In this document: in pieces, positions 26,505 to 31,024 of the stretch | How positions within the stretch are numbered: the stretch's first letter is position 1 | Layout of the letters: each line of letters begins with the position of its first letter | NCBI GenBank assembly: GCA_003559765.1 | Contig: PWKH01000146.1 | Span: 1 to 37,214 of the forward strand | Reading direction: 5' to 3' | Source: Spirochaetaceae bacterium | GTDB taxonomy: Bacteria > Spirochaetota > Spirochaetia > PWKH01 | Length of the DNA stretch: 37,214 bases | Made by a program: the position numbers and the translations under genes | Notes under the pieces: generated by a model | Database searches by the model: none | What the model was told of the DNA's origin: nothing | What the model saw: the letters and a program-made list of their open reading frames with translations, nothing else

Positions 26505-27998
26505 TTAAAACCGGTGATTTTCCACTCCCGGAAATACCATTTCGACCCGGGCACCGCCGAGAAGACAGGGATCCGCCGCCCTGATGATGCCCTGATGCAG
26601 CCGCATGATCTCTCGGCTTATGGAAAGACCGAGTCCTGCCCCGCCTGCTTCCCTCCCGCGGTGTCCGTCAATCCGATAGAACCGCTCAAAGATTTCATTC
26701 CGGTGCTCCGGACTGATTCCGGGTCCTGAGTCCTCCACTGAAATAATCAGCTCCCCCTGACGGCTGATGCTGCAGGAGACATCAACTGATCCGCCCCGGG
26801 GTGTATGGCGGAGGGCGTTCGCAAGCAGATTCGACAGCACCTGGGTGATTTTTTTCTCATCACAGAATATGACTGCCGACGCATCAGCAGGGAGGGCTCC
26901 GGGGGCGGCCGCCTGCTGGCGGGTGAAGGTTATGTGTCTTCCTTCAGCCAGTGCCGTAAATGCCGATATTCCCCGGTCTGCCAGCTGACATACCCGAAAT
27001 TCCTCCTTCCGGATCACCATGGTGCCTGCTTCAGCAGCAGAGAGTTCCTGGAGCTCTTCAATTAGCCGGGAGAGCTGCCGCACCTCAGCCTCCATTGCCG
27101 AGAGATGCTCCCGGTCGGCAGGGTACACCCCTTCCAGGAGCATTTCAATTTCTGCTGCCAGCAGCGAGACCGGCGTACGCAGTTCATGGGCGGCATCAGT
27201 TATCACCCGGCGTTTCCAGAGGTCGCTCCGGTGCAGGGATTCAACCATGGCGTTGAATGATTCTGAAAGTTCTCCCAGTTCATCCCGCCGCCTTGTGGGC
27301 ACCTTCACCTCATAGGTTCCTCCGGCGATCTGCTTCGATGCCCTGCTCAGATCTCCAACCGGAGCAACAATATGACGGAAGAGCAGCACGCTCACCGCTG
27401 CAGCCAGGACCGCTGCTGCCAGCGCCGTGATGATAATCCACCGATTCATGGAAACCAGTACCGCGCTGCGGTACTGGTCCAGGGACGGATCAATCATCGT
27501 GCCGGCAAATACATAGGCAACAGTTTCCCCGTCGGCATCCACCGGGGCGCCCCGCTCCGGGGACAGAGCTGAAATATCGGAGGTCTGCAGTCCGGACCCG
27601 TGGTGCAGCTGAATCTGCCCCCTGGTGTCGGTCACCACGATATCCTGCATCGGATCCTGCTCCCGATGCAGCATACTGTGAAACATGGGAAGTCCTGAAG
27701 CAGGTGACTCTCCCCGCATATGGTGACGCCCATGCTGCATGGAAGCCGGCTGCTGCTCCTGCAGCAGGGAGAAAAACCGCTCCTCGCTGATTTCATCGTC
27801 GGAGTCGTGATAGGAGAAGCTCAGTTCATCCGACAAGAGCCCCGCAATCTGCTGAGAAAGCTGGAGATCACTCACCTGTGCGTACTCAGCGAATTCCTGT
27901 TCCAGAGTGTATCTTGCAGAAACTGCAATCCCTCCTGCAAACAGGATGATCACCAGCAGAAAACTGGCGGACAGTTTGATCCATAACCGATTGAACAT
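26505..27998 (-). CDS. Membrane sensor histidine kinase (HAMP-HisKA-HATPase)
   Basis: Two TM segments, HAMP-like region, VITDAAHELRTPVSLLAAEIEML (H-box), NLLANALRHTPRGGSV (N-box), VEDSGPGIS, GAGLGLSISREI. Start trimmed to MFNRLWIK. Confidence 0.95.
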   Translation of the reverse strand: MFNRLWIKLSASFLLVIILFAGGIAVSARYTLEQEFAEYAQVSDLQLSQQIAGLLSDELSFSYHDSDDEISEERFFSLLQEQQPASMQHGRHHMRGESPASGLPMFHSMLHREQDPMQDIVVTDTRGQIQLHHGSGLQTSDISALSPERGAPVDADGETVAYVFAGTMIDPSLDQYRSAVLVSMNRWIIITALAAAVLAAAVSVLLFRHIVAPVGDLSRASKQIAGGTYEVKVPTRRRDELGELSESFNAMVESLHRSDLWKRRVITDAAHELRTPVSLLAAEIEMLLEGVYPADREHLSAMEAEVRQLSRLIEELQELSAAEAGTMVIRKEEFRVCQLADRGISAFTALAEGRHITFTRQQAAAPGALPADASAVIFCDEKKITQVLSNLLANALRHTPRGGSVDVSCSISRQGELIISVEDSGPGISPEHRNEIFERFYRIDGHRGREAGGAGLGLSISREIMRLHQGIIRAADPCLLGGARVEMVFPGVENHRF

Positions 27999-28011
27999 AC
28001 CCTTTACCTGT

Positions 28012-28704
28012 CTACTCCCGGGCAAAATAATATCCCCCTCCCCGCCGCGTAAGCAGATATCTCGGTCTGGAGGGATCATGCTCTATGATCTTCCTGATGT
28101 TCTTCACATGGGCATCAACCGTGCGTTCCAGGCCTTCATACAGGTCGCTGCTGAGATGATCAATGATCCGGGACCGGGAGAACACCATCCCGGGACGGCT
28201 CATCAGCAGATGCAGCAGCCGGTACTGCAGGGAAGTAACCGGAAGCTCCCGGCTGTTCTGCCATATCTGCTGGGAGTTCTCATCCACGGTAAAACCCAGA
28301 TGACTCCAGCTGTTTCTGCTCTGTCCCCCGGAGGTGCTTCCGGATCCGCCGCGGCGAAGCGCAACGGCAATTCTTGCTTCAAGTTCCCTGAGACTGAAGG
28401 GCTTCACCATGTAGTCATCAGTTCCCGCCTCAAATCCCTTGAGCTTATCCTCCTCAGCGCCTTTGGCCGTAAGCATGATGATCGGCACCGAACTGTGCTC
28501 CCGGATCCGGCGGGCTGCGGAGAGCCCGTCCAGTCCCGGAAGCATGATGTCGAGGACCGCCAGATCCGGCTGCAGCTGCTGAGCTTTTTTCACCGCAGCT
28601 AACCCGTCACCGGCCTCTATGACCGCAAACCCTTTTGCCGAAAGATAATCTGCAATAATTCTGCGAAGCCTCGGCTCATCTTCCACCACCAGGATTGTTG
28701 CCAT
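28012..28704 (-). CDS. OmpR/PhoB-family response regulator
   Basis: ILVVEDEPRLRRII, LAVLDIMLPGLDG, IIMLTAKG, DDYMVKPFSLRELEARI; winged-helix C-terminus RTVDAHVKNIRKIIE...YLLTRRGGGYYF. Confidence 0.97.
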   Translation of the reverse strand: MATILVVEDEPRLRRIIADYLSAKGFAVIEAGDGLAAVKKAQQLQPDLAVLDIMLPGLDGLSAARRIREHSSVPIIMLTAKGAEEDKLKGFEAGTDDYMVKPFSLRELEARIAVALRRGGSGSTSGGQSRNSWSHLGFTVDENSQQIWQNSRELPVTSLQYRLLHLLMSRPGMVFSRSRIIDHLSSDLYEGLERTVDAHVKNIRKIIEHDPSRPRYLLTRRGGGYYFARE

Positions 28705-28727
28705 GATCTGTCCTCCAGAAATCTTGA

Positions 28728-29453
28728 TTATCGCCGCATGCCCCTGCTGCGGTGCATCTGATCATGCAGATTCTGCATATCCTGCGGTTCTGCTGCTCTT
28801 CTGCCGTAAGGGAGGTTCTCCCCGCTGACCTCATCGCTCAAGGGACTTCGGCTTCCGTACCGTTCTCCTGCATCAGCCGGCTCCTGGAATTTTCTCCAGC
28901 CCCCGTGATGCATCCCGGCGGTACTGCCGTGCTCCCACCCGTAAGAAAACGCAGGACTGTCCTGCAGGGCTTTTTCAGCAGGAGCAGCCTCTCCCCATCT
29001 GCCGAATCCCCGGCTGCTGTGATGAGGGCCGTAGTGAGGGGAACCTGCTCTATCAGCCGGCAGGAGCAGTACGCCCTCCGGTGAGGTGATGCCGAGGGAG
29101 AAGGATTCACCGTCTATCACGGCCCGGGAGATCATCATCCGCTTCATATTTTCATAGGGCAGTTCACCGGGCATAATATAGCCGTAGACCGTCACTTCTG
29201 ATTCAGAATCTACGTCGATATCTGCGGCCAGATGGCGGTGATACTGCAGCAGATACCGGGTCTCTTCCGCCTCAAGCACGACCTGTCTGCCGAAAATCGA
29301 CAGCCTGCCGGTAACGCCGATCTCCCGAAGTTCAACTGTCGAATCCTCCGTCTCAGCAGATTCCGGCATCTGCTCCTCCACTGATCCCTGAGCAAAAGCG
29401 CTCAGGCTCATGGTCATCATCAGCACCAAAGTCAGCATTCCAATCCGATTCAT
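28728..29453 (-). CDS. Secreted His/Met-rich hypothetical protein
   Basis: Signal peptide MNRIGMLTLVLMMTMSLSAFAQG; C-terminal HYGPHHSSRGFG, HGSTAGMHHGGW, MQNLHDQMHRSRGMRR; GAGGAG SD. Confidence 0.82.
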   Translation of the reverse strand: MNRIGMLTLVLMMTMSLSAFAQGSVEEQMPESAETEDSTVELREIGVTGRLSIFGRQVVLEAEETRYLLQYHRHLAADIDVDSESEVTVYGYIMPGELPYENMKRMMISRAVIDGESFSLGITSPEGVLLLPADRAGSPHYGPHHSSRGFGRWGEAAPAEKALQDSPAFSYGWEHGSTAGMHHGGWRKFQEPADAGERYGSRSPLSDEVSGENLPYGRRAAEPQDMQNLHDQMHRSRGMRR

Positions 29454-29485: not shown

Positions 29486-29511
29486 ATATGTAAGTTTTCC
29501 TGATATGACTA
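29483..29511 (-). promoter_or_regulatory. Candidate promoter of the His/Met-rich protein-RR-HK operon
   Basis: Minus strand -35 TAGTCA (29506-29511), N17, -10 TATGAT (29483-29488). Confidence 0.45.
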
Positions 29512-29540
29512 TACGAAGGGTATATGAAAAATCTATGAAA
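29512..29540. promoter_or_regulatory. Three 11-bp-phased heptamers, candidate response-regulator site
   Basis: TACGAAG (29512), TATGAAA (29523), TATGAAA (29534), start-to-start spacing 11 and 11 bp, abutting the -35. Confidence 0.5.
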
Positions 29541-29605: not shown

Positions 29606-31024
29606 ATGAACACCCCTGGTCAAACAGACAGCACCCTCAGAATCGGAAGGACCTCCATGATTGCCGCCGGGGTAATTCTGCTGGTGCTGATGACCGTCTC
29701 CGGCATCTTAACCCGCATGATCCCTCCCGGCGCCTTCGAGCGGACAGCGGAAAACGGGATGGAGATGATCCGGGAGGGAAGCTTCCGCTGGATCGATGCA
29801 GATCCCCTGCCGGTCTGGAGATGGTACACCGCCCCGGTTGAGGTCCTCTTCGGTCCCGACGGGGTGATGATCATCGGCATCATCGTTTTTATGTGCGCTG
29901 TCGCCGGGGCGGTCAACATTCTCTACTCCGGAGGGATTCTCACATATCTGCTGCAGCGGATCATGCATACCTTTTCCGGGCGCCGCTACCTCATGGAAGG
30001 GGTGATTATTCTGATGCTGATGCTCTTCGGAAGCCTGCTGGGAAGCATGGAGGAGGTGGTGGTCCTTGTTCCCATGTTCACAGCACTTGCAGTAAGCATG
30101 GGGTGGGACCGGCTCACCGGCCTCGGTCTGAGTCTGGGAGCCATCGCCTTCGGCTTCGCTGCCGCCCTGACCAACCCCTTCACCATCGGAGCTGCCCAGC
30201 GCATAGCAGGGCTGCCCCTCTTCTCAGGCCTCTTCTACCGGCTGATCATTTTCGTGACCGTCTACCTGCTGTACACCTGGTACGTCATCACCAAATCCAG
30301 GCAGCAGGAAAAAATCTCCGGCGGCAGCTGTGCTTCCTCGGAGATCGGCGCTGCGCCGCCGGCATCACCGGAGAAACACCGGGCGCTGGTGTGGTTTGCC
30401 GCCTGGATGGCGGTGATGGCGGCGGTGATTGCCGCCTTCTCCCAGAGCGCAGTTCTTTCGCAGTATATCCTGCCGGCTGTCATGGTCAGCTTTGTTGCCG
30501 CCGGGGCGGGCTCCGGCGCCTGTGCCGGCATGTCTTTCCGAAAGCTGGTCCGCCGGTTCTTCCAGGGGGCAGCCGGTATTGCTCCCGGAATCATCCTGAT
30601 TCTCATGGCCGCCAGCATCAAGCATATCGTCAGCACCGGGGGAGCCATGGATACGATTCTTTACCGCTCCCAGCAGTGGATTACCGGAATGGGCCCCTAC
30701 GGTGCGGTGATCATGATGTATGCCCTGGTGCTGGTGCTGAATATCTTCATCAGCTCAGGCTCGGCCAAGGCCTTCCTGGTGATGCCGGTGATTACCCCCC
30801 TCGCTGATATCGCCGGCGTATCCAGACAGAGCGCCGTGCTGGCATACCAGTTCGGGGACGGATTTTCGAACATTCTTTATCCTACCAATGCGCTGCTGCT
30901 CATCTGCCTGGCTATCTCCGGAGTCAGCTACCTGCAGTGGCTCAAATGGATATGGAAGATACAGCTGATATTTTTCCTCTGCTCCCTGTTATTTCTGCTT
31001 ATCGCTGTATATATTGGATACTGA
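29606..31024 (+). CDS. YfcC-family (C4-dicarboxylate/amino-acid anaerobic carrier type) permease; possible true start at 29657
   Basis: TRMIPPGAFERT, GSMEEVVVLVPMFTALAVSMGWDRLTGLGLSLGAIAFGFAAALTNPFTIGAAQRIAGLPLFSG. ATG 29657 has the better SD (GGAAGGA). Confidence 0.85.
   Translation: MNTPGQTDSTLRIGRTSMIAAGVILLVLMTVSGILTRMIPPGAFERTAENGMEMIREGSFRWIDADPLPVWRWYTAPVEVLFGPDGVMIIGIIVFMCAVAGAVNILYSGGILTYLLQRIMHTFSGRRYLMEGVIILMLMLFGSLLGSMEEVVVLVPMFTALAVSMGWDRLTGLGLSLGAIAFGFAAALTNPFTIGAAQRIAGLPLFSGLFYRLIIFVTVYLLYTWYVITKSRQQEKISGGSCASSEIGAAPPASPEKHRALVWFAAWMAVMAAVIAAFSQSAVLSQYILPAVMVSFVAAGAGSGACAGMSFRKLVRRFFQGAAGIAPGIILILMAASIKHIVSTGGAMDTILYRSQQWITGMGPYGAVIMMYALVLVLNIFISSGSAKAFLVMPVITPLADIAGVSRQSAVLAYQFGDGFSNILYPTNALLLICLAISGVSYLQWLKWIWKIQLIFFLCSLLFLLIAVYIGY

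Follow-up and report, generated by a model that had tools for sequence, protein, structure and literature searches.

What is the role of a small secreted protein that is encoded directly before a two-component system, when both the protein and the kinase carry peptides rich in histidine and methionine? This question is raised by a locus of a Spirochaetaceae bacterium, within a stretch of 37,214 nucleotides (contig PWKH01000146.1) that was analysed as a whole and is called the window below. A sequence-only reading of the locus had proposed a metal- or envelope-sensing system with related His/Met modules in the sensor and in the secreted protein. This interpretation turns out to be half right.

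The operon and its secreted protein

On the minus strand, three co-directional genes encode a secreted protein (SP), an OmpR-type response regulator (RR) and a histidine kinase (HK), in that order, which supports the earlier view that they form one operon. The Response_reg and Trans_reg_C domains of the regulator and the HAMP and HisKA/HATPase domains of the kinase are those of an OmpR-type two-component system. The features of the locus are as follows.

29522 to 29540, minus strand: tandem 11-bp box TTTCATAGATTTTTCATAT (P=0.002 against shuffles)
29508 to 29513, minus strand: TATAGT, a candidate -10 element 8 bp past the box, read from the sequence
28728 to 29453, minus strand: SP, predicted secreted OB-fold protein of 241 aa, first gene of the operon, defined by a profile of homologues (no Pfam match at E<=1)
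29391 to 29453, minus strand: predicted signal peptide of SP, about residues 1-21, MNRIGMLTLVLMMTMSLSAFA, read from the sequence, no lipobox seen
29088 to 29339, minus strand: predicted OB-fold core of SP, about residues 39-122 (AlphaFold2 pLDDT about 90; Foldseek)
28731 to 29087, minus strand: low-complexity C-terminal tail of SP with His/Met peptides, from the sequence
29007 to 29036, minus strand: SP peptide HYGPHHSSRG, from the sequence
28896 to 28916, minus strand: SP peptide GMHHGGW, from the sequence
28731 to 28778, minus strand: SP peptide MQNLHDQMHRSRGMRR, from the sequence
28012 to 28704, minus strand: OmpR-type response regulator, 230 aa (Pfam Response_reg and Trans_reg_C)
26505 to 27998, minus strand: sensor histidine kinase (HAMP, HisKA, HATPase_c), start revised by alignment
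27648 to 27740, minus strand: Met/His-rich, predicted disordered extracytoplasmic segment of the kinase, MQHGRHHMRGESPASGLPMFHSMLHREQDPM, between two transmembrane helices
25332 to 26489, minus strand: coiled-coil protein of 385 aa, 16 bp past the kinase, no significant Pfam match
29606 to 31024, plus strand: DcuC-family transporter, divergent from SP, with the same divergent layout in another genome of the genus

The longest open reading frame of the kinase (26505-28079) overlaps the regulator gene by 68 bp (28012-28079), and the true start is probably Met28, at position 27998. The operon is flanked by the divergent transporter and the coiled-coil protein. Orthologues of the latter directly follow the kinase in two other genomes (49-55% identity) and none was seen in the remaining fetched loci; the gene is possibly a lineage-specific fourth member of the operon. 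The order SP-RR-HK is retained in the genus and in the family of the window's organism.

Computation predicts export of SP and an OB fold in its core. The predicted signal peptide consists of a hydrophobic stretch and an AxA site, and its position is conserved among homologues. AlphaFold2 and Foldseek point to an OB barrel in the core, in agreement with the OB-like domain guessed earlier. The signal peptide and this barrel make up the conserved part of the family. Foldseek searches with the model of the core recovered the OB proteins RPA, YgiW (1nnx) and NlpE, with a best E-value of 0.012; the match to 1nnx had a probability of 1.00 and an E-value of 0.08. These structural matches lie at E 0.01-0.1, and none in the PDB reached E<=0.001. 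Sequence searches of Pfam, NCBIfam and the PDB gave nothing meaningful for SP.

The three His/Met peptides attributed to SP from the sequence are all present in its tail. They are no more clustered than the composition of SP allows (P=0.96), and Met and His together make up 8.6% of the mature protein. Family-wide, the tails are variable and of low complexity, and are usually rich in Gly, Arg and Met, not in His. They are less Gly/Arg-rich in the window's own family than elsewhere. In an alignment of homologues, none of the Met, His or Cys residues of the core is conserved.

Distribution, partners and promoters

Homologues of SP occur in 12 of 60 relatives. A family profile built from 13 homologues was searched against 395 genomes of Spirochaetia (E<=1e-4) and matched 174 genomes in 88 of the 133 sampled genera, a prevalence that is an upper estimate because some of these hits are weak, at E near 1e-4. 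Other classes of the phylum contain a few matches as well. The named records found in a 5-row profile scan of the genome collection are Spirochaetes or Spirochaetales MAGs. Searches of the open-access literature turned up no description of the family. SP apparently represents a previously undescribed family that lacks a Pfam entry and is common in spirochaetes.

We fetched 92 loci around the better matches, with 94 SP genes. Directly downstream of 43 of these genes, on the same strand, are two-component genes: an OmpR-type regulator and a kinase in 20 cases, a kinase that is mostly followed by an NtrC-type regulator in 18, and a regulator-first or irregular order in five. These counts are not of independent events, since the loci share ancestry and were picked as top-scoring matches. 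The class labels are automatic and at least one is misplaced, an OmpR-type locus counted as kinase-first that is also one of the two kinase-first members for which the strict call gives no sigma-54 promoter. Kinases of the NtrC-type loci are nearest to the AtoS and ZraS models, far below the cut-offs, and their regulator is nearest to AtoC/NtrC/ZraR.

Each of these unrelated types of two-component system comes with a matching promoter type, a wiring that computation shows to recur across the class. In OmpR-type loci, the box has the consensus GTTCAYAT-NNN-GTTCACAT and is separated by a few bases from a following TA-rich hexamer that resembles a -10 element. The form in the window is among the weaker ones, and relatives have similar TA-rich hexamers at the same distance from the box. 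Upstream of SP in NtrC-type loci there are instead sigma-54 promoters that are close to perfect (TGGCACG-N4-TTGCA). At thresholds that were set, like the consensus, on part of the data and that shuffled sequences pass at a rate of about 0.5% for each type, the box precedes SP in 20 of 20 OmpR-type loci and the sigma-54 promoter in 16 of 18 kinase-first loci. The first of these figures is partly circular because the consensus was read from the same promoters, and independent support therefore comes only from orphan SP genes and from a strict scan of genomes. The 51 orphans comprise 24 with the box, 17 with a sigma-54 promoter and 10 with neither, and both types of promoter occur together in only two of the 94 SP genes. 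The strict scan of 395 genomes found 22 boxes, compared to six for a reversed control, and nine of the 22 are just upstream of SP. In the window's own genome it found two sites, equal to the reversed control, so we do not claim a wider regulon there. The tandem box, of a kind to which OmpR-type regulators bind, is likely to be the binding site of the response regulator. Feedback through the regulator, which had been suggested earlier, gains support from this conserved box upstream of SP.

Strict boxes in six loci are located away from SP, and could reflect either a wider regulon or chance. They precede genes for Cthe_2159-type carbohydrate-binding proteins (two genomes of one genus), an outer-membrane efflux protein, a VTC-domain protein whose gene is divergent from that of an OmpR-type regulator, a Fer4_5 membrane protein and a DUF2202 protein. 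At least six orphan SP genes have near-perfect sigma-54 promoters and no adjacent two-component genes.

Orphan SP genes also allow co-occurrence to be assessed where the genes are not neighbours. We searched with a profile of the kinase's sensor domain alone, and found such a kinase elsewhere in 17 of 20 genomes with an orphan box-type SP, in none of six genomes without SP and in neither of two genomes whose SP lacks the box (17/20 versus 0/8, one-sided Fisher test, about 5e-5, calculated by hand and ignoring relatedness). One genome has two SP genes and two copies of the sensor-domain kinase. The unlinked kinases mostly have a Met cluster, with a mean of 4.7, although the profile itself includes some Met columns. 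A search for co-occurrence of the module, as the sequence-only reading had advised, is thus positive both for adjacent and for separate genes.

The methionine-rich sensor loop

The His/Met-rich peptide that had been noted in the loop of the kinase is real: the segment at 27648-27740 contains 10 His and Met in 31 residues (P=0.0006 against shuffles of the same protein). In the AlphaFold2 model of the sensor domain, a long helix extends from the first transmembrane helix, the disordered, low-pLDDT Met segment comes next, and a small beta domain leads up to the second transmembrane helix. The fold is nearest to WalK, and the sensor domain of CusS is a very weak structural match (E 1.5).

Computation shows that a methionine-rich, predicted disordered periplasmic segment is a general property of SP-linked kinases. 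At least three Met per 30 residues are found in 34 of 35 linked loops. The best 30 residues of the loop contain a mean of 5.06 Met in the 35 linked kinases versus 2.07 in controls (P=8e-8), the controls being only 14 unrelated kinases from the same and related genomes. The cluster is present in both classes of SP-linked kinase. The recurring segment consists of Met with Arg, Gly and Pro around it, and methionine is the only residue conserved as a cluster. Three kinase orthologues of the window's family share the pattern MFxxMxHR.

Histidine behaves differently. The metal proposal had been made to depend on conservation of the His/Met residues in orthologues, and for His this conservation fails: its content in linked kinase loops (about 1.3-1.5%) is no higher than in controls, and SP tails contain 1.9% His in linked and 1.8% in unlinked proteins. 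Enrichment of His as a conserved feature is therefore ruled out. From the proposed pair of related modules there remain the low-complexity segments and the Met cluster.

The window's kinase scores below the cut-off of every curated model. The best score is that of BaeS/SmeS (NF012163, 235.4 bits, cut-off 500), and the scores of the heavy-metal sensor kinases CusS/CopS/SilS (TIGR01386, 169.6 bits, cut-off 292.55) and of CpxA (149.6 bits, cut-off 486) are lower.

Proposed function and alternatives

SP is best read, by analogy, as an autoregulated secreted accessory protein that would work like ZraP, CpxP or CopM, to which it is unrelated in sequence. ZraP of E. coli and Salmonella has a Gly/Met/His-rich tail. 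Like SP, it is an exported accessory protein and the main target of its own two-component system; for SP, the latter is suggested by a sequence signature only, namely the regulator-matched promoter upstream. ZraSR also resembles the NtrC-type SP loci in its sigma-54 promoter and NtrC-type regulator, and ZraS and ZraR are among the models nearest to these loci. However, ZraP has a helical LTXXQ fold while SP has a predicted OB fold, the window's system is OmpR-type and the kinases of SP loci score far below the ZraS cut-off. No LTXXQ family (CpxP/Spy/ZraP) matched SP in Pfam at E<=1 or was among the matches of 12 homologues. ZraP is both a chaperone and a repressor of the sigma-54 regulator system ZraSR (PMC8264917, PMC7657598).

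CpxP and Spy of E. coli are, like SP, associated with an OmpR-type regulator, under which these periplasmic proteins are strongly induced. Unlike SP, cpxP is transcribed divergently from its two-component genes, and the fold is different. CpxP inhibits CpxA, and inhibitory feedback on the kinase is the model for it (PMC6737893). The copMRS operon of Synechocystis has the same gene order as the window's operon, with a secreted Met/His-rich protein, an OmpR-type regulator and a kinase (PMC4335983). CopM has two DUF305 domains with an HH motif, whereas SP has no Pfam match to this family, and no copper gene adjoins the window's operon.

On balance, we consider it likely that this two-component operon senses conditions in the envelope, regulates its own expression and supplies a dedicated secreted accessory protein. 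The kinase would sense a periplasmic condition through its Met-rich loop, and the phosphorylated regulator would switch the operon on through the box. SP would then build up in the periplasm and act back on the kinase, either by sequestering the signal or by binding the sensor. From the analogy with ZraP acting on ZraSR and CpxP on CpxA, we infer that this feedback would be negative. SP would thus probably serve as a built-in damper or signal carrier in an envelope or metal-stress response, and may also protect envelope components. More tentatively, the envelope stress that serves as the signal could be of the soft-metal or a related thiophilic type, with Met clusters as suitable ligands.

In most spirochaetes, there has been little work on how stress outside the cytoplasm is sensed. 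If the proposed function is true, much of Spirochaetia is predicted to have a regulon for envelope or metal stress whose operator and output gene are defined and whose sensor segment can be tested. It would also mean that secreted feedback proteins have been used convergently, with the LTXXQ fold in Proteobacteria, DUF305 in cyanobacteria and the OB fold here.

Metal is a plausible signal, and a system dedicated to metal is possible, if doubtful. In such a system, Met and His of the kinase loop would serve as sites for Cu(I)/Ag(I) or Zn(II), with SP buffering or presenting the metal as in copMRS. Met clusters in both SP and the kinase are consistent with this idea, as is the precedent of CusS, in which part of the copper sensing is due to a disordered periplasmic loop that contains a Met triad and a His stretch (PMC10100754). 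The window's kinase has a comparable disordered Met/His loop but differs from CusS in its sub-threshold heavy-metal score and its sensor domain. A ZntA-like P1B ATPase of the Zn/Cd/Pb type (CPC motif, HMA domain) is directly upstream of SP-HK-RR in three genomes, and an EfeU/FTR1-type iron permease is upstream of SP-RR-HK in locus L019. However, the ATPase link is that of a single family, these hints (Zn/Cd/Pb and Fe) disagree while the Met clusters suggest Cu/Ag, and metal genes neither adjoin the window's operon nor occur in most of the 92 loci. The core of SP, without conserved Met, His or Cys, and the lack of conserved His elsewhere also argue against a metal system. Since the CusS residues are themselves not conserved in all homologues (PMC10100754), non-conservation of His weakens the metal reading but does not kill it.

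Neighbouring genes are hints to the signal, not proof. No effector neighbour is common to the family in the 92 loci, and none of the ATPase, iron permease, protease or flavoprotein genes discussed here adjoins the window's operon.

A general sensor of envelope damage seems rather unlikely. Here, the kinase would detect misfolded protein or membrane damage, SP would be a chaperone-like or polymer-binding protector and the Met/Arg segments would be docking sites between SP and the kinase. The curated models closest to the kinase are those of envelope-stress sensors, BaeS first, but it falls short of all their cut-offs. Locus L162 has an HtrA/DegP-type protease after SP-RR-HK, and strict boxes precede the above genes for the efflux protein, the Cthe_2159-type protein and the VTC domain; each such neighbour is limited to a single case or lineage. 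A precedent is YgiW/VisP, an OB protein of the periplasm that is linked to two-component systems and responds to polymyxin (PMC5636140).

We tentatively raise a further scenario, a signalling module found throughout the spirochaetes in which one SP family was wired more than once to OmpR-type and NtrC-type kinases. Both classes would have gained the Met loop because it makes up, together with the tail of SP, a common interface for a soft metal or a partner. SP would then be the recognition part and the two-component system would be interchangeable. That a single secreted family is paired with two classes of kinase is in any case a natural experiment on the role of the Met-rich loop.

Compositional drift, by which His/Met motifs would arise in disordered segments and have no ligand role, is improbable. 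The segments are indeed of low complexity and predicted to be disordered, their individual residues are not conserved and the SP peptides are not clustered beyond the protein's composition. Against this, Met clusters appear repeatedly in two unrelated classes of kinase, only together with SP, and the 14 control kinases lack them. Least probable is an oxidant sensor, in which oxidation of loop and SP methionines would change kinase activity and SP would be a sacrificial methionine pool: the conserved feature is Met rather than His, and CoA-disulfide-reductase-like flavoproteins directly follow the NtrC-type regulator of SP operons in four loci of one family (three called by score, one by position and length), but this link is limited to one lineage, no MsrPQ or comparable repair gene was noticed near SP and many carriers are probably anaerobes.

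The likely function as an autoregulated accessory protein has another analogue in the ygiW-qseBC operon of Aggregatibacter. According to PMC9019566, a secreted OB-fold protein is encoded first, followed by an OmpR-type regulator and a kinase, and regulator binding sites are upstream (citing Juarez-Rodriguez 2013, 2014). The predicted OB-fold and export of SP agree with the BOF/YgiW family (PF04076), yet membership was rejected, with no Pfam hit and a profile probability of 2.5% in hhalign. YgiW is not known to have a Met-rich tail. The window's genome has no BOF gene, and another spirochaete genome has several YgiW/BOF-family genes in tandem.
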